The notes under the pieces: generated by a model
Databases searched by the model: none
The model's input: the letters and a program-made list of their open reading frames with translations, nothing else
What the model was told of the DNA's origin: nothing
Translations under genes and position numbers: made by a program
Part shown: piece by piece, positions 4,354-52,827 of the stretch
How positions within the stretch are numbered: position 1 is the first letter of the stretch
How the letters are laid out: each line of letters opens with the position of its first letter
Source of the DNA: Candidatus Uhrbacteria bacterium
GTDB lineage: Bacteria > Patescibacteriota > Patescibacteriia > 2-12-FULL-60-25
NCBI GenBank assembly: GCA_003576745.1
Contig: QEVR01000001.1
Span: 186,001-250,000 of the forward strand
Direction of reading: 5' to 3'
Length of the DNA stretch: 64,000 nucleotides

Positions 4354-4381
4354 TTGATTTTTCATGTCTTTTTGATACGGT
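4354..4381 (+). promoter_or_regulatory. promoter with extended -10, near-leaderless
   Basis: TTGATT (4354-4359), a 16-bp spacer and the extended -10 TGaTACGGT (4373-4381). The -10 ends 8 bases before ATG 4390, so transcription should begin at about the start codon. Confidence 0.55.
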
Positions 4382-4389
4382 CACGGCCT

Positions 4390-5409
4390 ATGCGGATTGC
4401 AAGGACGCTGTCACCCGGACATCCGGACCGGCTCTGCGACATGCTTGCCGAAACGATTTTGGATGAGTATCTCCGTCGTGACCCCGCGACTTCCATGCGC
4501 GTGCATGTATCGGGCGGACGCGGGGCTATTTTTGTGAGCGGTGTCGTATCGTCCAAGGCGGACTTTGATGTGGGATCGCTTGTCGTACGCACGGCCGCGG
4601 CATTGGGCGTTCGCAAACACGTGGAACCTTTCGTATCGCTCGAGTCGGTTCCAGGCTCCTTTGTGTTGGAAGCCACGAGATCCTCCCGCCCCATTTCCGT
4701 CACGGGATATGCCGCGGCGGAAAGCGAAGAATCGCTTCCCGGACATGTCAGTTTGTCGCGTCGACTCGCAAAAAAACTGGAAGATGCGCGCCAGCGTGAC
4801 CCGGAATGGTTCTGGCTCTCGCCCTCGTTTGAAATTATCGTTGCCGAATCATATGGTCATCCGCCGATCATTCACGTGAATTGCGGACACGGGGAAGAGG
4901 ATTTGGCGAATGTTCGCGCGCGAATCAAGCAACTGTTCAATGGGGAGACGAGCGGGATGGACGTACGCGTGAATCATAACGGGCCCATCCGTGCGAACGG
5001 GCTGGATGTTGATATGGGAAATTCCGGCATCTCCGCGGATCCGTATGGCAGCGGCATTTATATACGGGAATCCGTGATCGGCTATGACCCGTCCCATCCT
5101 GTAAAATTCGGTTCCTGGCTGGCGCGCGGTCTGGCAAGCATGACGCTTCGGCGCACCGGCTCCAAAGCTGTTATGGTGCAGGCAGTGTATTTGCCCGGCG
5201 AAAGCGCGCCCAGCTATCTTCGCGTCCGCAATGAACGAGGGGCAGACCTCGCTGATCCGACGGATGCGGATGGTATGCGCTATGCGAAATTGGCATCGAT
5301 GCTCCGATACGGTCTGAACGCCGATGCTGCGCGCTGGGGATTTGCGGGAGAAGCGGGATTGCCATGGGAGCCGGTTGACCCCGGAAGCGCCCTCGACGCT
5401 TCTGCGTGA
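4390..5409 (+). CDS. divergent S-adenosylmethionine synthetase (MetK) homologue with degenerate active-site motifs
   Basis: MetK makes SAM from methionine and ATP. The N-terminus matches the family (SPGHPDRLCDMLAETILDEY, with the His and Asp of GHPDK/R), and GYAAAESEESLPGHVSL aligns with the GYATNET...MPxxI region. The product has 339 residues, while the family usually has 380-400. The canonical GDQG before GYA is replaced by RPISVT, and the GDAGLTGRKxxVDTYGG phosphate loop is reduced to GNSGISADPYGSG. The Lys and several metal- or phosphate-binding acids are therefore not evident. It may have altered or no SAM synthetase activity. Homology is confident and activity doubtful. The surrounding methyltransferase genes make a SAM-related role attractive but unproven. 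Confidence 0.75.
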   Translation: MRIARTLSPGHPDRLCDMLAETILDEYLRRDPATSMRVHVSGGRGAIFVSGVVSSKADFDVGSLVVRTAAALGVRKHVEPFVSLESVPGSFVLEATRSSRPISVTGYAAAESEESLPGHVSLSRRLAKKLEDARQRDPEWFWLSPSFEIIVAESYGHPPIIHVNCGHGEEDLANVRARIKQLFNGETSGMDVRVNHNGPIRANGLDVDMGNSGISADPYGSGIYIRESVIGYDPSHPVKFGSWLARGLASMTLRRTGSKAVMVQAVYLPGESAPSYLRVRNERGADLADPTDADGMRYAKLASMLRYGLNADAARWGFAGEAGLPWEPVDPGSALDASA

Positions 5410-5413
5410 TGTT

Positions 5414-5422
5414 TGTTACCCT
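5414..5422 (+). promoter_or_regulatory. extended -10 element
   Basis: TGtTACCCT, ending 8 bases before ATG 5431. A weak TCGACG at 5393-5398 (18-bp spacer) could serve as the -35. It lies 5 bp after the metK-like stop. Confidence 0.4.
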
Positions 5423-5430
5423 TCGGCGAT

Positions 5431-6205
5431 ATGGTTGTGCCTCCTGTTATGAAAACGGCTCTGTGGGCCGCGGCACTCCGAGCCCGGTCGGCAAACGATC
5501 CGCAGTCGCTTGTCGCCGACCCGTTCGCTATACGCCTCATTGGTGAGGATGGGCTTGCGGAAGGCCTTGCGTATGAGCAGAAGCACGGGGCCGGCATACA
5601 CATGCTCCGGCGGACCAGACTGTTTGACGATCTCATTCTCCGCATTATCGGGGAACGGTCTGTCGGCACGGTGCTTTATCGCATCGCTCACGTGGATCGA
5701 AATCGATTTTCCGAATGTTTTGAATTGGAAAGCGCAGGCGCTCGCCGGACATGATCCGGCATGCAAACTCATTCGCGCGCCTGCTGATCTTACAAAACCT
5801 CATGCCGTTCAGGAAGCCGTCAAAGATATTCCGACAGAAGGAAAATGTCTGATTGTCATGGAGAATCTTCTGCATTATTTGGACGGGCTCCAGACACAGA
5901 ATTTTTTTCAGGATATCCGAAGCTTCGGATCGGCGAATATGGTGCTGGTGGATATCGGAAGTCCGGCATTGCCGACAAGCACCCTCGGAAAAGTCATGTT
6001 CGGAGAGCTGGAAAAAGCCGGGAGCCAGCGCGCGGGCATAGCCGACATTGCCGCCTTCGCCGGTCATGCAGGTTATCGTGTTCTGCAGTCGTTTCCTCTT
6101 TTTGCGCTCCGCGGGGCGCCTGATTCCTGGAAGGAAACCGCTCCGTGGTATGTGTCTCGCGCAAAACAGGATCTTCTGCGTATTGTTGTTCTTGAACGGA
6201 CCTAA
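5431..6205 (+). pseudogene. frameshifted leucine-carboxyl-methyltransferase (LCM/PPM1-like) family gene
   Basis: The first part, in frame 1 (5431 to about 5680), reads like the start of LCM-family O-methyltransferases: TALWAAALRARSANDP, DPFAIRL, then RRTRLFDDLILRII. The family continues with motif I (NLGAGLDTRxYR) and then WIEIDFPNVLNWK. The latter is present, but in frame 2 (from about 5690), and continues to 6205 with VMENLLHYL in place of the usual gLlmYL. No frame contains an intact GxGxD motif I at the junction. The simplest reading is a deletion of a few tens of bases, not a multiple of three, that removed motif I and shifted the frame. Frame 1 stops at 5754. A single-base error would not restore the motif. 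Confidence 0.65.
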
Positions 6206-6227: not shown

Positions 6228-6236
6228 TGCTACGCT
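6228..6236 (+). promoter_or_regulatory. extended -10 element
   Basis: TGcTACGCT, ending 8 bases before ATG 6245. No convincing -35, as expected for an extended -10 promoter. Confidence 0.45.
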
Positions 6237-6244
6237 ATCACTCT

Positions 6245-6847
6245 ATGAACCGCATTGCCCTTCCATTCGCCATGCTTCTTCTTCTCGGTCAAGGATGCGT
6301 CCCATCGCGGCCCCAACCGCGCGGCATCCCTCCAGCCCCCCAACCTATTCAAGAATCTCTTCCATCTGTGACCACACCAAACACCCTTTCATTTCCCGGC
6401 GTCCTTCCCGCGGAACAGACCAATGCCATCGTACGCATAAAAACCCCGAAGGGCGATATTGTGATTCAGATACTTCCAGACGAAGGGCCGAACGCAGCTT
6501 CCAATTTTGCGTATCTTGTTGGCCAGCGTTTCTATGACGGCCTCACCTTCCATCGCGTCGAGCCTGGATTCGTAATTCAGGGCGGAGATCCCCGGGGGAA
6601 TGGTACCGGAGGCCCAGGCTATAGCTTCGAGGACGATCCCGTGGGTTTGCCGTATGCCCGTGGCATCGTCGCCATGGCGAATGCCGGACCGAATACGAAC
6701 GGTTCGCAGTTCTTCATTATGCTGGCAGACACGCCTTTGCCTCCCGCGTATTCCATATTCGGGAAGGTGATTGAAGGGATGGACGTGGTGGATCAGATTC
6801 GCGTGGGCGATGTCATGACCTCCGTCACGATCGATGCAAACGAGTAG
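6245..6847 (+). CDS. cyclophilin-type peptidyl-prolyl cis-trans isomerase, lipoprotein
   Basis: A 200-residue protein. A type II signal peptide ends in the lipobox LLGQGC (Cys near residue 18), so the enzyme is probably anchored outside the cytoplasmic membrane. A proline-rich linker leads to a cyclophilin domain with the hallmark blocks TFHRVEPGFVIQGGDP, GIVAMANAGPNTNGSQFFI and YSIFGKVIEGMDVVD. It should catalyse prolyl isomerisation during folding of exported proteins. The Trp of the cyclosporin site is absent, as in most bacterial forms. ATG 6245 is preferred over an upstream ATG because it immediately precedes the signal peptide and fits the -10 element. The stop lies 8 bp before the next gene. 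Confidence 0.92.
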   Translation: MNRIALPFAMLLLLGQGCVPSRPQPRGIPPAPQPIQESLPSVTTPNTLSFPGVLPAEQTNAIVRIKTPKGDIVIQILPDEGPNAASNFAYLVGQRFYDGLTFHRVEPGFVIQGGDPRGNGTGGPGYSFEDDPVGLPYARGIVAMANAGPNTNGSQFFIMLADTPLPPAYSIFGKVIEGMDVVDQIRVGDVMTSVTIDANE

Positions 6848-7861: not shown

Positions 7862-7890
7862 TTGTCCGGCGCGGTTTTGACACGTACAAT
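7862..7890 (+). promoter_or_regulatory. sigma70-type promoter predicting a leaderless transcript
   Basis: TTGTCC (7862-7867), a 17-bp spacer and TACAAT (7885-7890). The -10 ends 7 bases before ATG 7898, which puts the expected first transcribed base at the start codon. Confidence 0.6.
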
Positions 7891-7897
7891 GTCTTGT

Positions 7898-8830
7898 ATG
7901 AAGCGAATGGCGATCCTTTGCACGGGGATTTTGCTCTTAGGAGCCGGATGCCTGCGTACGACCATCGGCGAATTGCGCGGCGTAAAAAAATACCAGCTGC
8001 CGCCCGTTTCCGAGTACGCCTTTCAGGATTCCTTTCTGCCGGAGGAAGAGCCGACAACCTCTTCTGATATCCTTCCTTTGTTACCGGAGGACCCCAATGT
8101 TCAGCCTGGGGAAATTGCGTCGGAATCGCAGAACGTCATTGTTTCGAGCGTCATCGCGCATTCGGAATTGCCGAATCCGTTCGTGTTGCTGGGCCGGGCG
8201 CGCGCGTTTGAAAACGTGGTTTACTGGCGCATCCGGGATGCGCGCCGGCTTGTCCTTGCTTCGGGACAGGCCATCACCAATGCGCCTGATGCGGGACGAT
8301 TCGGCGCTTTCCGCATTCGCGCATTCATTGACACGCTGCCGGAAACGGACGGGGGAACCGTCGAGGTATTTACCCGGTCGCCACGCGATGGTTCCGAACA
8401 GGATACGGTGAACATCCCGGTGACGCTTTCCCGCGAGGTCACGATGCTTAAGGCCTATTTTTCTAACATCGAAAAGGATCCGGGAGCCGAGCGCTGCGAA
8501 CAAGTCTATCCGGTTACGCGGCGCGTGTATCGCACGCAGAATGCGGCAGAGGCCGCCGCGCTGGAACTTCTCAAGGGCCCCACGGCTCTCGAACGCGGCA
8601 CTGGATCCCGTACGTCGCTTTTACCGGGGACGGCGCTGCGATCCATCGTTTTAAAAGAAGGGGTGCTGACGGCGGATTTTTCACGCGATATCGTGTTCGC
8701 GCTTGCCGGTTCCTGTAATATTCAGGCCCTCCGCGCGCAGATTGAACAGACCTTCCTTCAATTTCCCACCGTTCAAGTTGTGCATATTCTGGTGGAAGGC
8801 GAGAATCTCGATAAACTTTTCAATCCATGA
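7898..8830 (+). CDS. Gmad2 and GerMN domain lipoprotein
   Basis: A 310-residue lipoprotein (signal peptide with lipobox LLGAGC). After a linker, residues about 80-180 form a Gmad2 immunoglobulin-like domain (VIAHSELPNPFVLLGRA ... VEVFTRSP). Residues about 185-305 form a GerMN domain (LKAYFSN ... AALELLKGPTALE ... GVLTADFSRDI). This pairing is known from spore germination and sporulation proteins of Firmicutes and is also frequent in Patescibacteria, where its role at the cell surface is unknown. A strong promoter precedes it. It overlaps the next gene by 4 bp (ATGA). Confidence 0.85.
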   Translation: MKRMAILCTGILLLGAGCLRTTIGELRGVKKYQLPPVSEYAFQDSFLPEEEPTTSSDILPLLPEDPNVQPGEIASESQNVIVSSVIAHSELPNPFVLLGRARAFENVVYWRIRDARRLVLASGQAITNAPDAGRFGAFRIRAFIDTLPETDGGTVEVFTRSPRDGSEQDTVNIPVTLSREVTMLKAYFSNIEKDPGAERCEQVYPVTRRVYRTQNAAEAAALELLKGPTALERGTGSRTSLLPGTALRSIVLKEGVLTADFSRDIVFALAGSCNIQALRAQIEQTFLQFPTVQVVHILVEGENLDKLFNP

Positions 8831-24204: not shown

Positions 24205-24213
24205 TGTTACACT
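24205..24213 (+). promoter_or_regulatory. extended -10 element
   Basis: TGtTACACT ending 7 bases before ATG 24221, predicting a leaderless mRNA. No good -35. Confidence 0.5.
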
Positions 24214-29139: not shown

Positions 29140-31836
29140 ATGAGTTCGAACGGAAACCGAGTGGCGGGGCGTGCCTGGAAATGGATGTTCCTTTCCAGCG
29201 TTCTCCTCGCGGCGGCAACGGGCTGTGTGGCCGGCAAAGATGCCGGCGACAATGGCTCCGACACCGCCAGCCGTACCCAGAATCTGGATACGGATGACGA
29301 CGGCATTTTGGACTGTTCGCAGTCCTGGCTGTCCTACGCCGACACGGGTTGCACGCCCGTGGACAACTGTCCCCTGAATCCCAACAACAACCAGCTCGAC
29401 TTCGATCTGGACGGGGACGGGGACGCCTGCGACGCCGATTTGGACGGCGATGGCGTGAACAACTGCGTGGATGGCGCGCTCTACCCGTGCTCGGACACGA
29501 GCTCGGGAAGCGGCCGCACCACGCCGTCGACGGATTTGGACAACTGCATGTTCGTCCCGAACGCAAGCCAGGTGGACACCGACAACGACGGCATGGGCGA
29601 TGCCTGCGATCCCGACAAGGACAATGACGGGATCACAGACGCGGACGACAATTGCCCGACCACCGCCAACCCCAACCAGGCGGACAAGGACAATGACGGA
29701 CAGGGCGACCTGTGTGACTTCGACACCGACAACGACGGCGTGTGCGATCCCGGCAACCCCCAGGTGGGCTGCGTGGGCTCGGACAACTGCCCCACCATTC
29801 CGAACGCCTTTCTCACCTGCGTGCCCGGCGACCCCAATCAAGGGGATGCCTACTGCGCCATGTTCGGCAGCGGCACCTGCGGCGCCGACAAGCGTTGTAC
29901 CACGCAAATGGACAACGATGCCGACGGCTTGGGCGACGTGTGCGATCCCGACGACGACAATGACGGGGTTCTGGACAGCCAGGACAACTGTCCGCTCGTC
30001 GCGAACGCAAACCAGGCCGACACCAACAAGGACGGCGTGGGCGATGCCTGCTCCGACGACAAGGACGGCGACGGCGTTCTGGATGGCAAGGACAATTGTC
30101 CGCTCGTCGTAAATCCGGGTCAGCAGGACACCAACCACGACGGCGTGGGCGATGCTTGCACCAATGACAAGGACGGCGACGGCATCGCGGACGGGCAGGA
30201 CAACTGTCCGGACGTGGCGAACAACAGCCAGCTCGATTCCGACTCGGACGGCATGGGCAATGCCTGTGACGCCGATGACGACAATGACGGCATCCTCGAC
30301 GTGAACGACAACTGTCCGCTCACGCCCAACCCTTCGCAGGCCGACCTCGACAATGACGGATTGGGTGACGCGTGCGATACGGACGATGACGGTGACGGCG
30401 TGCCCGATGCCACGGACAACTGTCCCTTGGTCGCGAATCCCACGCAGGCGAATGCCGACGGCGATGCCTTCGGCGACGCGTGCGACGACGACAGCGACAA
30501 TGACGGGGTTTGCAACCCCGGCGTCACGAGCTCCAGCCAGTGCACGGGCACGGACAACTGTCCCTTGGTCGCGAATCCCACGCAGTCGAATCTTGACGGC
30601 GATGCTTTCGGCGACGCGTGCGATCCGGATGCCGACGGAGACGGAGCGAACAGCCCCGCTTTTGGCGGCAACGACTGCTGCGACACCGGTCAGGAGTCCG
30701 GGCAGGGTCTGCGCATTTGCAATACCGTGGTGGCCTCGAGCATCAACCCGAGTGCAACCGAGGTGTGCGATTTGCAGGACAATGACTGCGACGGCGTCAT
30801 CGACGACGGCGTAGACGACGACAAGGACGGCTGGGCCGATGCGGCCACCGGCCTTTCGTGCCCGAGCCCCGGCGGCGCCGGCGACTGCAATGACAACGAT
30901 CCGTCCGTGCATCCCACGGCTGGCGAGCTCTGCGACGGCAAGGACAACAACTGCAATGGCTCGGTGGACGAGGGTTGCAGCGGCGGTCCGAGCGCGGAAA
31001 TCTGCGACGGGCTCGACAATGACATGGACGGCTTCGTGGACGAAGGCTTCCCGTGCGTGCAAAACACCACGGGGCTTCCGTGCACGAGCGTCTGCGGCAC
31101 GGCCGGCACCAGGAGCTGCTCCGCGACCTGCACGTTCATGACGTGCATGCCGCCGGCAGAGGCCTGCGCCAACGGCATCGACGATGACTGTGACGGTCTC
31201 GTCGACTGCCTCGACCCGAACTGCGCCGGCTATCCGGGCTGTTCGGGCGGATGCTCCGATTCGGACGGCGACGGGTACTATTTGCAGGCCGGCTGTGGAA
31301 CGCCACAGGACTGCAATGACGGGAACCCGAACGTGAACCCGGGCAAGACCGAGGTGTGCGGCAACGGCATCGACGATGACTGCAACGCTCTCACGAGCGA
31401 TGCATGCAGCGGCAGCGCCAATGTGCATATCAAATACGATGCCACGGGCTCCGGCTCGGCCTTCGCCCTCGCAGGCGGCGGCAACATCCACATCGAAGGC
31501 TGGTATGGGAGTACCCCGTGGGGCACCATCTGCACCGACACCAATGCGGCTCCGCTCGTGTTCGACTGCGACGTGAGTCTGCCGTCGGGCGTGTTCGTGG
31601 AGTTCCAGGTGTTCCTGCAGACCGCGGGCGCGCCGGGCGGGTATTCCTACTGGGGCGACCAGAGCTACACCACATGGGGCGGCAAGGGTTCGCTTCAGGG
31701 TGTGGTCACCGTTACCTCGGGCGGATCTCCGCGCGTGGTTTCGCTCGTGCAGGCGCCTTCGTACAGCAACCCGAATCCGGCAACCACCGGGGAGCCGGGC
31801 GAGCTGCTCACGTACAACGGGCGTTTCACCCCGTAA
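29140..31836 (+). CDS. large lipoprotein with thrombospondin type 3 and MopE-like repeats
   Basis: An 898-residue secreted lipoprotein (signal with AAATGC lipobox near residue 27). Residues about 45-510 contain some ten thrombospondin type 3 calcium-binding repeats of the form DxDxDGxxDxxDNCPxxxNPxQ. Residues about 520-770 carry MopE-type metal-binding repeats (CNDNDPSVHPTAGELCDGKDNNCNGSVDEGC pattern). A C-terminal domain of about 120 residues is unassigned. The protein would be a stiff, calcium-loaded surface stalk or adhesin. It has a good Shine-Dalgarno site (ggaggt, 6 bp before ATG) and high-GC codons unlike the flanking genes. It pairs with the upstream Gly-rich lipoprotein. Confidence 0.88.
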   Translation: MSSNGNRVAGRAWKWMFLSSVLLAAATGCVAGKDAGDNGSDTASRTQNLDTDDDGILDCSQSWLSYADTGCTPVDNCPLNPNNNQLDFDLDGDGDACDADLDGDGVNNCVDGALYPCSDTSSGSGRTTPSTDLDNCMFVPNASQVDTDNDGMGDACDPDKDNDGITDADDNCPTTANPNQADKDNDGQGDLCDFDTDNDGVCDPGNPQVGCVGSDNCPTIPNAFLTCVPGDPNQGDAYCAMFGSGTCGADKRCTTQMDNDADGLGDVCDPDDDNDGVLDSQDNCPLVANANQADTNKDGVGDACSDDKDGDGVLDGKDNCPLVVNPGQQDTNHDGVGDACTNDKDGDGIADGQDNCPDVANNSQLDSDSDGMGNACDADDDNDGILDVNDNCPLTPNPSQADLDNDGLGDACDTDDDGDGVPDATDNCPLVANPTQANADGDAFGDACDDDSDNDGVCNPGVTSSSQCTGTDNCPLVANPTQSNLDGDAFGDACDPDADGDGANSPAFGGNDCCDTGQESGQGLRICNTVVASSINPSATEVCDLQDNDCDGVIDDGVDDDKDGWADAATGLSCPSPGGAGDCNDNDPSVHPTAGELCDGKDNNCNGSVDEGCSGGPSAEICDGLDNDMDGFVDEGFPCVQNTTGLPCTSVCGTAGTRSCSATCTFMTCMPPAEACANGIDDDCDGLVDCLDPNCAGYPGCSGGCSDSDGDGYYLQAGCGTPQDCNDGNPNVNPGKTEVCGNGIDDDCNALTSDACSGSANVHIKYDATGSGSAFALAGGGNIHIEGWYGSTPWGTICTDTNAAPLVFDCDVSLPSGVFVEFQVFLQTAGAPGGYSYWGDQSYTTWGGKGSLQGVVTVTSGGSPRVVSLVQAPSYSNPNPATTGEPGELLTYNGRFTP
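30415..30623 (+). repeat. near-identical internal TSP3 repeat copies
   Basis: The 72-bp blocks 30415-30486 and 30552-30623 within the lipoprotein gene differ at only a few positions, over 30 identical bases in a row included. Other repeats in the gene have diverged further. This points to recent duplication or gene conversion of one repeat. Confidence 0.8.
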
Positions 31837-31992: not shown

Positions 31993-32001
31993 TGATACAC
32001 T
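31993..32001 (+). promoter_or_regulatory. extended -10 element
   Basis: TGaTACACT, ending 10 bases before ATG 32012. The hexamer is identical to that upstream of 24221. No clear -35. Confidence 0.5.
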
Positions 32002-32011
32002 TTCCTTACGC

Positions 32012-33475
32012 ATGCATTCTTCGGAACATCAGGCCGTCCATGCAAAAACCCACAGCCTGCAAACGCTCGGCTGGGGAATGTTTGCGATTCTCATTGTCGC
32101 GGCGGTTTTTATTTCATCCGGTATGCCTTTGGGAATCGTCACCATCTTGGGGGGCATTGCGGCGATTCTTTTTGCCTTTACGTATCCGTATGCCGCCTTC
32201 GGGCTTTTTGTGGCGCTTATTCCTTTTTTGGGACTGTTCGTTCACTTGCCGACAGGGTCATTCGCCATCGGCGAACGGGCATTCGGCGGCGCCATCGATG
32301 TGTTGGTGGGAGAGGTCGTCGCCATGGTGCTTATGATCTCATGGGGGCTCAAGGTTCTCTTTCTCTGGGTCAGGCGGCATGACGTAAATTGGAAGCCTTG
32401 GCTGCCGCTCCTTTTGCCAATGTCAGGAATTCTCCTTGCGCATCTTGCGTCGGTATTTTCTTCATTTCAGCCGGATCCCGTTCTTGTTTTGAAATATACG
32501 CTCCGGCCGGTTTTCTGGTCGTATTTGTTGTATGTGGCGCTCACGGTGAATTTTATACGATCTGCGCGGCGCCTGCGCATGGCGCTCGGCATCGCCGCGG
32601 GGACGGGGATATTTATGGCGGTTCTGGGGTTTTTATCGTTCGGTCTTACGGATCAGTCGGGACAGCTCTTGCCCCGTGCGCGCCCTCTTCCCATTTTCGG
32701 CACGCATGCGCTGGGGGAAAATCACAATCTTCTCGCCGAATGGCTGAGCGTCACGATTCCGTTTACTATCGCGCTCATGTATATGGCGCGCGGCCGGGCA
32801 CGGCGTTTGTTGGTGGTCGCGGCGATATTTCAAACGGCCATCGCCCTTCTTACCTTCGCTCGCACCGTGTGGATTGTGCTGTTGTTCGAGGCCGTTCTGC
32901 TCGGCTGGTTTGTGTGGCGTGAACAATTAAAGCGCTACGCTTCCGCCGCGCTCATCGGCCTGTTGCTTCTGTTGCCTCTCGGGATTTCCATGATCGCGTT
33001 TTCGAGCACGCCGCTCGTGCAAAGCTCCACATCCACGCGTCTCATGCTTTCGGAAATCGCGTTTAACACATGGATGCAGAGTCCATGGATCGGGGCGGGG
33101 GCGGGAACCTTCGTGGAACGCGTGGGATCCGCGGCAGTGTTCGTGATTGAATACGGGAATCCGCTCGATTCCCACGGCTGGATACAAAAACTCCTCGCAG
33201 AAGTGGGACTCCTTGGGCTTGCGGCCGTGGCATGGTTCGTGTGGGAAACGGGAATCTTTGTACGCAAAACACTTCCGCGGTTCCGGGCGCGTTCTTCTGA
33301 ATGGAATGTCTTCGTCATTTTAGCCATTGGCGCGGCGGGCGCGCTCGTGTATCAGCTTTTCAACACGAATTACTGGACGGGAAAACTATGGTTCCCGCTC
33401 GGCATTCTCCTCGCCTCGTCCCGCGCGCTTCTGTCGCGCCAAAAACGGCCGGAAGCGGATCCCATTCATGAATAA
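32012..33475 (+). CDS. O-antigen ligase/polymerase family membrane protein (Wzy_C)
   Basis: A 487-residue, multi-pass membrane protein with about 11 helices. The Wzy_C region includes LLTFARTVWIVLLFEAVLLGWFV and the periplasmic loop motif NPLDSHGWIQKLLAEVGLLGLAA, the counterpart of the HNxxLxxxxExGxxG signature of ligases and polymerases. It should join or transfer a lipid-linked glycan at the cell surface. It is the first gene of a run with two overlapping GT4 genes (8-bp overlap with the next). The short promoter-to-ATG distance predicts a nearly leaderless mRNA. Confidence 0.85.
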   Translation: MHSSEHQAVHAKTHSLQTLGWGMFAILIVAAVFISSGMPLGIVTILGGIAAILFAFTYPYAAFGLFVALIPFLGLFVHLPTGSFAIGERAFGGAIDVLVGEVVAMVLMISWGLKVLFLWVRRHDVNWKPWLPLLLPMSGILLAHLASVFSSFQPDPVLVLKYTLRPVFWSYLLYVALTVNFIRSARRLRMALGIAAGTGIFMAVLGFLSFGLTDQSGQLLPRARPLPIFGTHALGENHNLLAEWLSVTIPFTIALMYMARGRARRLLVVAAIFQTAIALLTFARTVWIVLLFEAVLLGWFVWREQLKRYASAALIGLLLLLPLGISMIAFSSTPLVQSSTSTRLMLSEIAFNTWMQSPWIGAGAGTFVERVGSAAVFVIEYGNPLDSHGWIQKLLAEVGLLGLAAVAWFVWETGIFVRKTLPRFRARSSEWNVFVILAIGAAGALVYQLFNTNYWTGKLWFPLGILLASSRALLSRQKRPEADPIHE

Positions 33476-35818: not shown

Positions 35819-35842
35819 CGGAAACTCTGCATTGGTTAGGTT
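35815..35842 (+). promoter_or_regulatory. promoter overlapping the stop of the upstream GT4 gene
   Basis: TTGACG (35815-35820), a 15-16-bp spacer and TGgTTAGGT (35833-35841). The -10 ends 13 bases before ATG 35855. The small dyad gagaacaatctc (35843-35854) lies between them. Confidence 0.5.
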
Positions 35843-44329: not shown

Positions 44330-44547
44330 CCCCGCCTCATTGGGCGCCCCTCTCGATTTCGACAGAGGCGTCCAACCGGGCGGGGGGAGGATCGTCACCC
44401 GGATGCGGGTTTCCGTCCTTGTAAACGCCCGCTCGCATTTCTCAAGCATCCTCGCCAGGCCATTTCGTTTCAAAGGTCGATCCCGGCTATGCCGGGAAAC
44501 GGATGGGTACTATTCACCATCCGATGCGCCGATTCCTACGGATCGGC
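44330..44547 (+). promoter_or_regulatory. structured 5' leader of the candidate S-layer gene
   Basis: The 317-bp gap 44259-44575 holds no gene but many hairpins: an outer stem CCCCGCC/GGCGGGG (44330-44336, 44379-44385) that encloses a CGCC-CTCT/AGAGGCG stem; ACCCG/CGGGT (44397-44410); TCCCGGC-tat-GCCGGGA (44481-44497); GGATGG/CCATCC (44501-44522); and GCCGAT/ATCGGC (44528-44547). No known riboswitch class is recognised. It could stabilise a very abundant mRNA or regulate its translation. Confidence 0.5.
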
Positions 44548-44575
44548 AGCATCAACTCCAACATCATTCAACAAC

Positions 44576-47500
44576 ATGCATTCCATCAAGAAAGCATTCT
44601 CAACGTTCGTCACCTTTACGACCGTCCTTTGGTCCATGGGTGGAGCGTTGCTCTTCCCGGGAGTTGCGCAAGCCGCAACCCTTTCCCCCGGCGACCTTAT
44701 TAAGGCCTCCGGCCCGGCGGTGTATTACTATGCCGCTGACGGGAAGCGTTACGTATTCCCGAACGAAAAGACCTATTTCTCGTGGTATAACGATTTCTCG
44801 TCCGTGGTGACCATTACGGATGCAGAACTCGCCGCCATCATGATTGGCGGAAATGTCACGATCCGCCCGGGCACCAGCCTGGTGAAGATCACGACAGACC
44901 CGAAGGTCTATGCCATCTCCAGCAATTGCGGGATGCTCCACTGGATTCAAAGCGAAACGCTTGCGCAGCAGCTCTACGGAGCCAACTGGGCACAGCGCGT
45001 CGTTGACGTTCCAGACGCATTCTTCGTCGACTATGAAGTCGGTTCTCCGATTTCCAGCGCCGTCCACCCGGACGGGACCGTAGTAAACTACGCGTCCAAT
45101 CCGAGCATGTGGTACGTGGTCTGGAACGGCCAGAAGCGCGAGCTTCAGGGCACCGCGGCAGCCGACAACATGCTTAACCCCGCAACGTGGGGCATGACAA
45201 CCACCATCGATTACACGACCGGTTCCCCGATTACGGGCAAGATTGCCGAACTCTCGGACGTCGGCTGCCCCTCGGCGACTCCGTCGGTAACCGGCGGCGT
45301 GACCGTTACGCTGGCGTCTGACACGCCGGCCGGCGTCACAGTTCCGCGCAACTCCTCCTCCAATGCCGTTGTCAAGGTTAACTTGACGGCCGGCAATGCG
45401 GCGGCGCGCGTGAACGGTTTGCGCTTTAAGCGCGTGGGCGTAGGAAACGCGAGCGATATCGCCAATGCGTACGTCTACGACCAGAACAAGGTTCGTCTCA
45501 CCACGGGACGCACCATCAATTCCACCACACACGAAGTGGAATTCAGCTCGCTTGGCATTGATGTCCCGGCAAACAGCACCGTTGCGGTGTATGTATACCT
45601 CGACTTCAGCGTCGCCTCCGGTTCTGAAGGCGGCGTCCACGCCATGCAGCTCGCTGACGCCGCAAGCGTCGTTATCGAAGGAACGGGCACGGTCACCGGG
45701 AACTTCCCGATTACCGGTAACTCGTTCACGGTCGGTGCCGCTTCCGCGGCCCGCGTAGACGTCGAAAAGGGCGTTACGCCGTCAAATCCGACCATCGGCG
45801 CCAAGGACAAGGAAATCTCGAACTTCCGAATTACGGCCAACACCAATGATGTCGAAATTCGCCAGATCAACGTGTACCAGGCCGGTTCGGTAAACAACTC
45901 TGACTTGAGCAACTTCAAGCTCTGGCAGGGCAGCACGCTCGTTGCAACGGGCGGCGCGGTATCCAGCGACAACCTCATTACCCTGGTTTTCAATCCCGCC
46001 TTCGTTATTACGAACGGGACAACCAAGGTGTTCAGCCTCACGGCTGATGTAGGCGGACGCGCAGGTCGCACCATCCGCACCTACGTTGAATACACCACGG
46101 ACGTTACGGCCATAGACAAGGTCTATAATGCCGGCGCATTCGTATGTATCAACAATACGGTGACGGGTTGTACGACAGGCAACTCCAACTTCGACGGAAC
46201 CGGTACGAATTACGTTGAAGTGACCACCGAGGGCGGAACCCTTACGGTGACCTTCAACGGCCCCACCACGCAGAACGTGGCCAAGGGCACGCTCGGCGTT
46301 CCGTTGTTCAATGTCACGCTGACCGCAGCGGACAGTGCGCTCGAAATCCGTAAACTGAACATCGTGCTCACGGCCGGCGGCGGCGGAGTTGTGAAGGGTT
46401 CGGCAGGTACCGAATACTTCCGCAACTTCCGTCTTCGCGACATCAACACGGGTGTCACGGTCATGGGTCCGATCAATATGCCTTCGGGCGTGGCGAACAG
46501 CGCCGCAACCACGGGCGCCTTCACGTTCACGGACAGCTGGAACCTGAACGCAAACCAGGTCCGCGATCTTGAGCTCGTGGCTGACATCTCCAATTCGGAA
46601 GATGGCGCGAACGAACTCTTCGGCGACGGCAATAACACCTACACCCTCACGATGAACGCCTTCGGCTCGTCCGATGTGCGCGTGGTGGACACGGGTGAAT
46701 TCCTCGCGACCTCGCAGATCGTTCCGAATTCCAACATCGTCGGCAATCCGCTCACCGTAAAGGCTTCGAGCCTTTCGGCCGCGCTTGCGACCAACCCGGT
46801 TGGAACCACCATTGTGAAGAAGCAGGCTGACGTTGACGCGGTGGGCATTACGCTTTCCGCGGGTCAGCAGAGCGACGTAACCATAACCTCCATGAAGGTG
46901 AGTGGTATGGCCCAGACGGCATTCGTGCCGGGCTACACGGCGGCCAAGTTCGGCCAGCTCGTGACGTCCCTCAAGCTCTTCGACGGAACAACGCAGCTCG
47001 GCACCGCCAAGGCGCCGAACACCACCACGGGCGACGCCACATTCACCGGCATTAACCTCCTGATCCCGAAGGGAACCACCAAGCAGCTGACCGTCAAGGC
47101 CACGCTCGCCTCCACGGTTTCCACCACCACGTCCACGGACGACTTTGCCATCGGCATTGCCGCAGCCGCGGATATTACGGCCCAGGACGGCGACGCCAAC
47201 ACGGTGAATGCCACGCTCTCCGCCGGACTCGTCGCGAACGCGTCGGCCGCCGGACAGACCGTGATTCAGAGCGTCCGCAACAGCGGTACGATTACCTACC
47301 AGCAGGACAGCCATCCGCAGACGACCATCCTCGTTGCCGGAGGCTCCACCTGGAAGGTCTTCTCCCGCTATAAGGCAACGGCACAGTACGAAAGCGCCGA
47401 ACTCGACCGCGTTCAGGTGATTCACCCGAATGACGGCGGCAAGAACGGCGACTTCTCGATGATTGCCGTGGCTGTGGGCGGCGATGTGACCAATCGTCAG

Positions 47501-48472
47501 GACATCCTCTCGGCCGGCGCAACCGGTACGAAGGACGTTGACATGAGCCAGAACAAGATTACGGTTCCGAAAGACGGTTCCGTGAACTTCGAACTCTGGG
47601 GTCAGATCTCCAGCCTCTCGTCCACCTCATCTGCAACCGCCAACTCCCCGCGCTCCGGCGACACGCCGAGTCTGGGCGTTGCAACGAATACGCAGACGGG
47701 CGAATGGGACGCAAACTATGCCGCGAAGATCAACATCCGGGCAACCGGTTTGGCATCCGGCGAACGTCTGTATGACGGCGCCAAGAACGGCCTTGTCGGA
47801 AACACCATGGTGCTCCGCAAGACCAAGCCGACCGTAACCAAGCTCGCTGTTGGCAGCACCACCATTACGAACGGCGCCGACACGGAACTCTACAAGTTCC
47901 AGGTGACGCCTGACGCCAATGGCGGCTCCGTGGCATGGAAACAGATTATCTTCACGGTAAGCTTCTCGGGCACGCAGACCCTGAACAACTTCAGGCTCTA
48001 CAAGGGCTCGCAGATGCTCTCGGTTACCCCGGGATCCCGCGAAGTCTTCATTACCGGCGCAACCGGTACGGACCTGACAGGTTCCAATAACCTGCAGGGC
48101 AATACCGTTGTTGTCCGCTTGGTAAACGAAGAATCCGTTTCCGGCTCCGGCACGGTGTACACCTTGCGTGCCACACCGAACGGCGCTTCTGCCGGCGACT
48201 CGATCGCTACGCAGTTCAAGCGAAACACGACAGGCACCGTTACCGGGTATCTCACCGATGACGGCGGCGTCTCCGGCTACGTAGGCTCGCTCGGTATTGA
48301 CACCGCAGTGTCACCGGACAACACCTCGAATGCCGACGGCAGCTTCGTGTGGTCCGATAACGTCGATGTTCCGCACAGCTTCGCCTCTGGCACGGCTGGC
48401 GGCTCTCGCGACTGGACGGACGACGTGCTCGTCGAAGACCTGACGCAGACGCAATCCCTCAGCAAGTCGTAA
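44576..48472 (+). CDS. large secreted beta-rich protein, candidate S-layer protein
   Basis: A 1298-residue protein. The signal peptide (TVLWSMGGALLFPGVAQA) is cleaved before ATLSPGD. Residues about 35-220 hold a domain with GDLIKASGPAVYYYAADGKRYVFPNEKTYFSWYNDF and WIQSETLAQQLYGANW, familiar from Patescibacteria surface proteins. The rest is a long array of beta-sandwich modules rich in Thr, Asn, Gly and Val, with repeated phrases (TKVFSLTADV, TLTVTFNGP, NTVVLRNT-like strands). Codon choice is strongly biased (AAC, ACC, AAG, GGC), as in highly expressed genes. Size, secretion, composition, dedicated leader and a strong terminator suggest the S-layer subunit; that is inference. No Shine-Dalgarno site. 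Confidence 0.8.
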   Translation: MHSIKKAFSTFVTFTTVLWSMGGALLFPGVAQAATLSPGDLIKASGPAVYYYAADGKRYVFPNEKTYFSWYNDFSSVVTITDAELAAIMIGGNVTIRPGTSLVKITTDPKVYAISSNCGMLHWIQSETLAQQLYGANWAQRVVDVPDAFFVDYEVGSPISSAVHPDGTVVNYASNPSMWYVVWNGQKRELQGTAAADNMLNPATWGMTTTIDYTTGSPITGKIAELSDVGCPSATPSVTGGVTVTLASDTPAGVTVPRNSSSNAVVKVNLTAGNAAARVNGLRFKRVGVGNASDIANAYVYDQNKVRLTTGRTINSTTHEVEFSSLGIDVPANSTVAVYVYLDFSVASGSEGGVHAMQLADAASVVIEGTGTVTGNFPITGNSFTVGAASAARVDVEKGVTPSNPTIGAKDKEISNFRITANTNDVEIRQINVYQAGSVNNSDLSNFKLWQGSTLVATGGAVSSDNLITLVFNPAFVITNGTTKVFSLTADVGGRAGRTIRTYVEYTTDVTAIDKVYNAGAFVCINNTVTGCTTGNSNFDGTGTNYVEVTTEGGTLTVTFNGPTTQNVAKGTLGVPLFNVTLTAADSALEIRKLNIVLTAGGGGVVKGSAGTEYFRNFRLRDINTGVTVMGPINMPSGVANSAATTGAFTFTDSWNLNANQVRDLELVADISNSEDGANELFGDGNNTYTLTMNAFGSSDVRVVDTGEFLATSQIVPNSNIVGNPLTVKASSLSAALATNPVGTTIVKKQADVDAVGITLSAGQQSDVTITSMKVSGMAQTAFVPGYTAAKFGQLVTSLKLFDGTTQLGTAKAPNTTTGDATFTGINLLIPKGTTKQLTVKATLASTVSTTTSTDDFAIGIAAAADITAQDGDANTVNATLSAGLVANASAAGQTVIQSVRNSGTITYQQDSHPQTTILVAGGSTWKVFSRYKATAQYESAELDRVQVIHPNDGGKNGDFSMIAVAVGGDVTNRQDILSAGATGTKDVDMSQNKITVPKDGSVNFELWGQISSLSSTSSATANSPRSGDTPSLGVATNTQTGEWDANYAAKINIRATGLASGERLYDGAKNGLVGNTMVLRKTKPTVTKLAVGSTTITNGADTELYKFQVTPDANGGSVAWKQIIFTVSFSGTQTLNNFRLYKGSQMLSVTPGSREVFITGATGTDLTGSNNLQGNTVVVRLVNEESVSGSGTVYTLRATPNGASAGDSIATQFKRNTTGTVTGYLTDDGGVSGYVGSLGIDTAVSPDNTSNADGSFVWSDNVDVPHSFASGTAGGSRDWTDDVLVEDLTQTQSLSKS

Positions 48473-48718: not shown

Positions 48719-48733
48719 CTTGCCTGCTATCCT
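48704..48733 (+). promoter_or_regulatory. promoter formed at the end of heptad tract C
   Basis: TTGCTA (48704-48709), 18-bp spacer and TGcTATCCT (48725-48733). The -10 ends 12 bases before ATG 48746. Confidence 0.5.
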
Positions 48734-52798: not shown

Positions 52799-52827
52799 AT
52801 CTTAGTCAGGTCCGGTCATCTTGACAA
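52799..52827 (-). promoter_or_regulatory. promoter predicting a leaderless mRNA
   Basis: On the minus strand: TTGTCA (52827-52822), 17-bp spacer, TAAGAT (52804-52799). Seven bases separate the -10 from ATG 52791. Confidence 0.6.

Follow-up and report, generated by a model that had tools for sequence, protein, structure and literature searches.

Sigma70-type promoters adjoining start codons predict leaderless or near-leaderless mRNAs in a Candidatus Uhrbacteria genome and in most of the Patescibacteria checked

The S-adenosylmethionine synthetase-like gene at 4390-5409 (+ strand) lies downstream of an extended -10 element, TGATACGGT (4373..4381, +), which ends only 8 bases before its ATG and has a weak -35, TTGATT, at 16 bp. 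This locus raises the question of whether promoters are systematically placed so close to start codons in this genome and its relatives, an arrangement that would give leaderless or near-leaderless mRNAs. With their reduced genomes and ribosomes, Patescibacteria form a very large bacterial branch with almost no cultured members, and to our knowledge little is known of how transcription and translation start in them. The window, meaning the whole stretch of 64,000 nucleotides analysed here, covers positions 186001-250000 of its contig, in a genome of 1.06 Mb (97% complete, four contigs, GC ~55%). The RpoD of this host shares 78% identity with Candidatus Uhrbacteria RpoD, the next matches being from other Patescibacteria, and its ribosomal protein S12 contains an insertion of a kind known from this group.

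The sequence-only reading had listed nine starts in the window preceded by a -10 element, and when each site was checked in the sequence eight of them matched. Besides TGATACGGT, the exact TGnTAnnnT form was found, always on the + strand, as TGTTACCCT (5414..5422; 8 bases before ATG 5431 of a leucine carboxyl methyltransferase-like gene), TGCTACGCT (6228..6236; 8 bases before ATG 6245 of a cyclophilin-type peptidyl-prolyl isomerase, 6245-6847, +), TGTTACACT (24205..24213; 7 bases before ATG 24221 of a family 4 glycosyltransferase), TGATACACT (31993..32001; 10 bases before ATG 32012 of a Wzy_C/O-antigen ligase-like gene), and TGCTATCCT (48725..48733; 12 bases before ATG 48746 of a gene encoding a Wzy_C plus TPR protein). 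The two non-extended elements are also present 7 bases before their starts, and each is paired with a -35-like hexamer across a 17-bp spacer: TACAAT (7885..7890, +) before ATG 7898 of a gene for a Germane/Gmad2-domain protein, with TTGTCC (4/6 matches) at 7862..7867 (+), and TAAGAT (52799..52804, - strand) before ATG 52791 (-) of a glycosyltransferase gene, with TTGTCA (5/6) at 52822..52827 (-). Both 24221 and 52791 (-) are transcription-unit heads whose upstream gene is on the opposite strand. The extended -10 proposed 13 bases before 35855 was rejected: in the sequence there, TGGTTAGGTT, the TG is too far from the TA and the promoter score is about zero; TAGGTT (35837..35842, +) ends 12 bases before this start, and the upstream same-strand gene is only 36 bp away. 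For the listed genes, the stated lack of a Shine-Dalgarno (SD) site was borne out: the 20 bases preceding each of the nine starts contain no SD-like motif.

Several neighbouring genes deserve mention in their own right. The leucine carboxyl methyltransferase-like gene (5431-6205, +) is split by a frameshift, with its N-terminal half in the 5431-5754 frame and its C-terminal half in the 5510-6205 frame, matching PF04072 positions 1-81 and 105-186, respectively; the promoter before it is intact, and the frameshift reflects either a decayed gene or an assembly error. An 898-aa protein with many thrombospondin type 3 repeats and MopE-like metal-binding motifs is encoded at 29140-31836 (+), in a neighbourhood of surface-polysaccharide genes that includes the Wzy_C ligases at 32012 and 48746 and glycosyltransferases. 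A 1327-aa ORF at 44489-48472 (+) gave no Pfam match.

Use of the arrangement beyond the window was assessed with gene calls from an inhomogeneous Markov model based on coding statistics only and blind to upstream sequence (920 genes), of which 588 transcription-unit heads were used for genome-wide counts. The motif TGNTANNNT ended 6-9 bases before the start in 49 of these heads, against 2.58 expected (Poisson p about 1e-44). Counts at gaps of 5, 6, 7, 8, 9 and 10 bases were 0, 16, 12, 12, 9 and 4, over a background of 0.62 per gap, and the complete absence of the motif at gaps 1-5 gives the distribution a sharp lower edge at 6. When the TG was not required, TANNNT still occurred 34, 36, 31, 25 and 18 times at gaps 6-10, compared with 6.7 expected. 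Simpler searches were less informative: in plain counts of TANNNT plus ATG strings over the whole genome the signal was lost in noise and only the TG-extended form revealed it, and a -35-anchored pattern used without annotation was too sparse. These numbers bear directly on the possibility that -10-like hexamers are merely common and that those near starts had been picked out by eye. In favour of this view, one of the nine sites fails outright and about half of all TGNTANNNT-N6-9-ATG strings in the genome are background. Nevertheless, the positional scan showed strong enrichment at blind starts while shifted controls stayed at background, which refutes chance as the source of the pattern; we regard it as the least credible of the explanations considered, with a negligible probability. 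The systematic use in this genome proposed from the window is thus upheld well outside it.

The extent of the arrangement was estimated with a cross-validated position weight matrix (PWM) for the -10. At gaps 5-12, 17.9% of heads scored above threshold, against 2.4% in shifted windows, a fraction that is approximate because gene starts come from a home-made gene finder. Among heads preceded by a gene on the opposite strand, the proportion rose to 30.8% (1.9% in the control) with the PWM trained on all heads, and was 28.0% (1.6% in the control) when gaps were restricted to 6-11. The resulting 28-31% is probably a lower bound, as are the extent figures generally, because weak -10s and misplaced starts are lost; where the start was unambiguous and the preceding gene lay on the opposite strand, 12 of 20 heads had the arrangement. 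At the same threshold, only 6% of inner operon genes scored positive, against 1% in the control, so that enrichment is strongest at first genes, declining from 31% of opposite-strand-preceded heads to 18% of all heads and 6% of inner genes. The -10-like sites before inner genes could be internal promoters or codon effects.

Inner genes as a whole showed raised TANNNT counts at gaps 6 and 9 (9 and 12, respectively, vs. 1.6). Two genes, at 8827 and 34592 (+), overlap the upstream gene by 4 bases in the ATGA manner and yet score strongly for a -10-like element 9 bases ahead of the start; either these are internal promoters, or the overlap produces a codon effect.

The identity of the motif was addressed by aligning on the -10 the 139 genes with TANNNT at gaps 6-10. 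Features that had not been selected for emerged from this alignment, namely TTG at -23..-21, which places a -35 (TTGaca) at a spacing of 17 bp, a TG at -3/-2, and C or T at position -5. The core of the -10 is preferentially TA[CT][AG][AC]T. Of 132 genes, 30 match TTGACA in at least four of its six bases at spacer 17, whereas other spacers gave 0-9. In addition, a -35 was used by 27 of 77 -10s lacking TG but by only 5 of 47 with TG (Fisher p=0.003), a trade-off that is the classical compensation between both elements, and TTGACA-N17-TANNNT was also found ~10-20 bases upstream of several tRNA genes. On this anatomy, we take the motif to be a real sigma70-type promoter, because the unselected -35 at 17 bp, the TG/-35 trade-off and the same elements before tRNA genes all point to one. 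The genome encodes one RpoD-type sigma factor.

An AT-containing motif at this position might instead be a translation signal, either an A/U-rich S1 element or a non-canonical ribosome-binding site (RBS) like that of Bacteroidetes. The motif sits where an RBS would, S1-like proteins are encoded in the genome along with IF2, IF3 and an S21-like protein, and in other phyla AT-richness between -20 and -10 has been considered as either a promoter or an S1 site (PMC5397173). The Bacteroidetes (FCB group) signal resembles the host motif in being AT-rich, upstream of starts and accompanied by little SD use, but neither a -35 nor a fixed promoter geometry is expected there. The fixed TA...T, the TG extension, the -35 at exactly 17 bp and its compensation with TG are at odds with a translation signal, as are the concentration of the motif at transcription-unit heads and its weakness inside operons. 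Likewise, the near-zero count at fewer than 6 bases fits a transcription start that is barred from falling inside the AUG. Furthermore, the near-absence of SD use typical of Bacteroidetes was not observed in this genome: the 16S rRNA retains a canonical anti-Shine-Dalgarno at its 3' end (...GGATCACCTCCTTTC), and SD motifs peak at gaps 3-8 before starts. We therefore consider a translation signal very improbable.

Initiation in the host is thus mixed, with SD-led genes beside promoter-proximal ones. An SD motif precedes only 3 of 117 promoter-proximal heads, compared with 74 of 471 other heads (p=4e-5), a deficit that arises in part by construction, since the -10 takes up the positions where an SD would lie.

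Returning to the promoter reading, the bases next to the ATG give an indication of where transcripts may begin. A pyrimidine stands immediately before the ATG in 59 of 68 cases at gaps 6-7, against 47% of all ATGs, and the dinucleotide AT precedes ATG in 23 of 56 cases at gaps 8-9 but in 4 of 68 at gaps 6-7 (p=2e-6). This shift with the gap is as expected if transcription starts 7-8 bases downstream of the -10, at a purine that follows a pyrimidine. The sharp edge at gap 6 likewise fits initiation 7 bases downstream of the -10 under the constraint that the whole AUG be transcribed. The predicted transcripts are 5'-AUG... and 5'-AUAUG..., their 5' ends being those we infer from this geometry. 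A -10 at 6-10 bases from the ATG thereby supports predicted initiation on the AUG or no more than about 4 bases from it; from sequence, leaders of 1-6 nt are indistinguishable from zero. The leaderless interpretation offered by the sequence-only reading gains support from promoter anatomy, position and positional enrichment over shifted controls.

The model that we propose is as follows. A housekeeping sigma70-type promoter, TTGaca - 17 bp - [TGn]TAYRMT, would have its -10 located 6-10 bases ahead of the ATG that opens the first gene of a transcription unit, and RNA polymerase would initiate 7-8 bases after the -10, favouring a purine after a pyrimidine. With a gap of 6-7, the start should fall on the A of the AUG and yield a leaderless mRNA; with a gap of 8-10, it should fall 1-4 bases upstream of the AUG, often giving 5'-AUAUG. 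Since leaderless mRNAs leave no room for a Shine-Dalgarno, the ribosome, probably in its 70S form as in other bacteria, should begin translation by recognising the 5'-terminal AUG directly, and this mode would be used beside SD-led initiation. Overall, it is very probable that sigma70 promoters adjoining the ATG of first genes give leaderless or near-leaderless mRNAs in this genome, mixed with SD-led initiation.

The promoters could be real and translation nevertheless begin at a downstream codon, in which case the leaders would be ordinary and the called ATGs wrong. Coding statistics alone favour another start in four of the nine listed genes, downstream in three (6368 over 6245, 7907 over 7898 and 48815 over 48746) and upstream in one (31970 over 32012); the starts 32012 and 48746 are ambiguous with 31970 and 48815, respectively, and 6245 is supported by conservation in relatives. 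However, the starts used to measure the enrichment had been picked by coding statistics only, and the enrichment is seen in the unambiguous opposite-strand-preceded heads. It is also specific to ATG: in the whole genome, TG.TA...T-N6-9 is enriched when followed by ATG, and the same string followed by GTG, TTG, GAT or GTA is not. Among the 139 aligned genes, 137 start with ATG, a codon that also makes up 886 of all 920 calls and is favoured by the caller's prior.

Orthologs bear on the same alternative, as the ATG is kept in them at a near-fixed distance from the promoter. For the cyclophilin gene (6245), TGNTANNNT ends 8-10 bases before the ATG in 13 of 21 informative genomes of the genus or family, over a background of ~0.1% per position per gene, and the same placement is found in the ortholog from another family of the class (L308). 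For the gene at 4390, 12 of the 15 genus- or family-level genomes with readable starts have TANNNT at a gap of 6-12 bases from the ATG, often with TTG at the -35 position, at protein identities of 31-59%; in this count, one genome with its sole match at a GTG (L298) was scored as a miss, and one whose start was not readable (L293) was left out. Taken with the evidence from blind starts, this conservation leaves little probability for translation from downstream codons.

To examine relatives at starts called in the same way, the blind gene-calling pipeline was applied to 100-kb samples, leaving out two genomes (G100 and G057: few genes; GC 0.16 and 0.10, presumably because most letters are N). 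In both sampled members of the family, TGNTANNNT at gaps 6-9 was enriched 13- and 18-fold, in two members of the class enrichment was weaker (4-5-fold), and in several other classes it reached 24-fold, all single-genome folds being rough because 100-kb samples hold small counts. With the same pipeline, no enrichment was found in E. coli (1 observed vs. 0.8 expected) or in one phylum member (G078), and in Bacillota contigs totalling 1.06 Mb the motif was depleted (1 vs. 4.3 expected) and SD strong.

An annotation-free survey, in which TGNTAYRMT-N6-9-ATG was counted against the same string with N15-18, extended the comparison. Across 143 Patescibacteria genomes, 5512 occurrences were found vs. 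1843 (3.0-fold; median ratio 3.05), whereas 18 Bacillota genomes gave 1478 vs. 1384 (1.07-fold), a difference that again speaks against chance. The ratio exceeded 1 in 135 of the 143 genomes, 101 were individually significant at 0.01, and none was significantly below; the survey conveys breadth and not an exact gene fraction, because it counts one strong form of the element without start validation. Named Patescibacteria with enrichment included Uhrbacteria (28 vs. 8), Kerfeldbacteria (52 vs. 13) and Peribacteria (38 vs. 6). No enrichment was found in this survey in Candidatus Moranbacteria GW2011_GWF2_35_54 (L211; 17 vs. 32) or in three other Patescibacteria (G076, G083 and G098), which together with the phylum member negative in the blind pipeline suggests loss or a changed initiation mode within the phylum. 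Leaderless or near-leaderless promoters thus appear, on these sequence patterns, to be used in the host and in most of the relatives checked. A broader proposition is that such sigma70 initiation is phylum-wide and probably the ancestral main mode, serving about a third to half of heads alongside SD-led initiation, with loss or reduction in some lineages; to this we would assign even chances.

Two cases stood out in the survey. Counts were exceptionally high in one Patescibacteria family (f32; 168 vs. 27 in G159, 102 vs. 17 in G065 and 86 vs. 23 in G172). Lachnospiraceae FE2018 (L214) was the sole Bacillota control of the 18 with a significant excess (97 vs. 58).

The mechanism is of an already established bacterial kind, since leaderless mRNAs are known in bacteria, and it is the lineage for which we found no report: our literature search for leaderless mRNA in Patescibacteria, CPR, Saccharibacteria or Parcubacteria, from which subscription papers were mostly outside reach, returned none. 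In E. coli and Firmicutes, an SD-containing leader normally follows the extended -10 promoter at a distance of tens of bases. The host resembles them in that TGn before the -10 compensates for a weak -35, but the E. coli and Bacillota controls lack its placement of the extended -10 beside the ATG. Zheng et al. (2011) described leaderless genes with a TA-like box ~10 bp before the start in 207 of 953 bacterial genomes, amounting to ~20% of genes in Actinobacteria and 40% in Deinococcus-Thermus, and Patescibacteria are not named among the groups with leaderless genes in that study (PMC3160421). The TA-led genes of Actinobacteria and Deinococcus-Thermus are like those of the host in having TAnnnT ~10 bp before the start, in mixing SD-less with SD-led genes, and in forming a large minority of genes. 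They belong to other phyla, and unlike them the host prefers TAYRMT, often TG-extended and with a partly conserved -35 at 17 bp. Similar to the present prediction is the leaderless class of GeneMarkS-2, which, as summarised in StartLink, predicts leaderless transcription in 21.6% of bacterial species, with up to 40% of transcripts; Patescibacteria are not named in that summary (PMC9581028).

The rule that the promoter lies next to the AUG supplies the lineage with a consensus promoter. It can also help to place start codons correctly in metagenome-assembled genomes, in which SD-oriented gene finders may misplace them, and for expression of such genes in SD-dependent hosts it means that constructs need an added leader. 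Finally, it makes testable a link between leaderless initiation and the reduced ribosomes of Patescibacteria.
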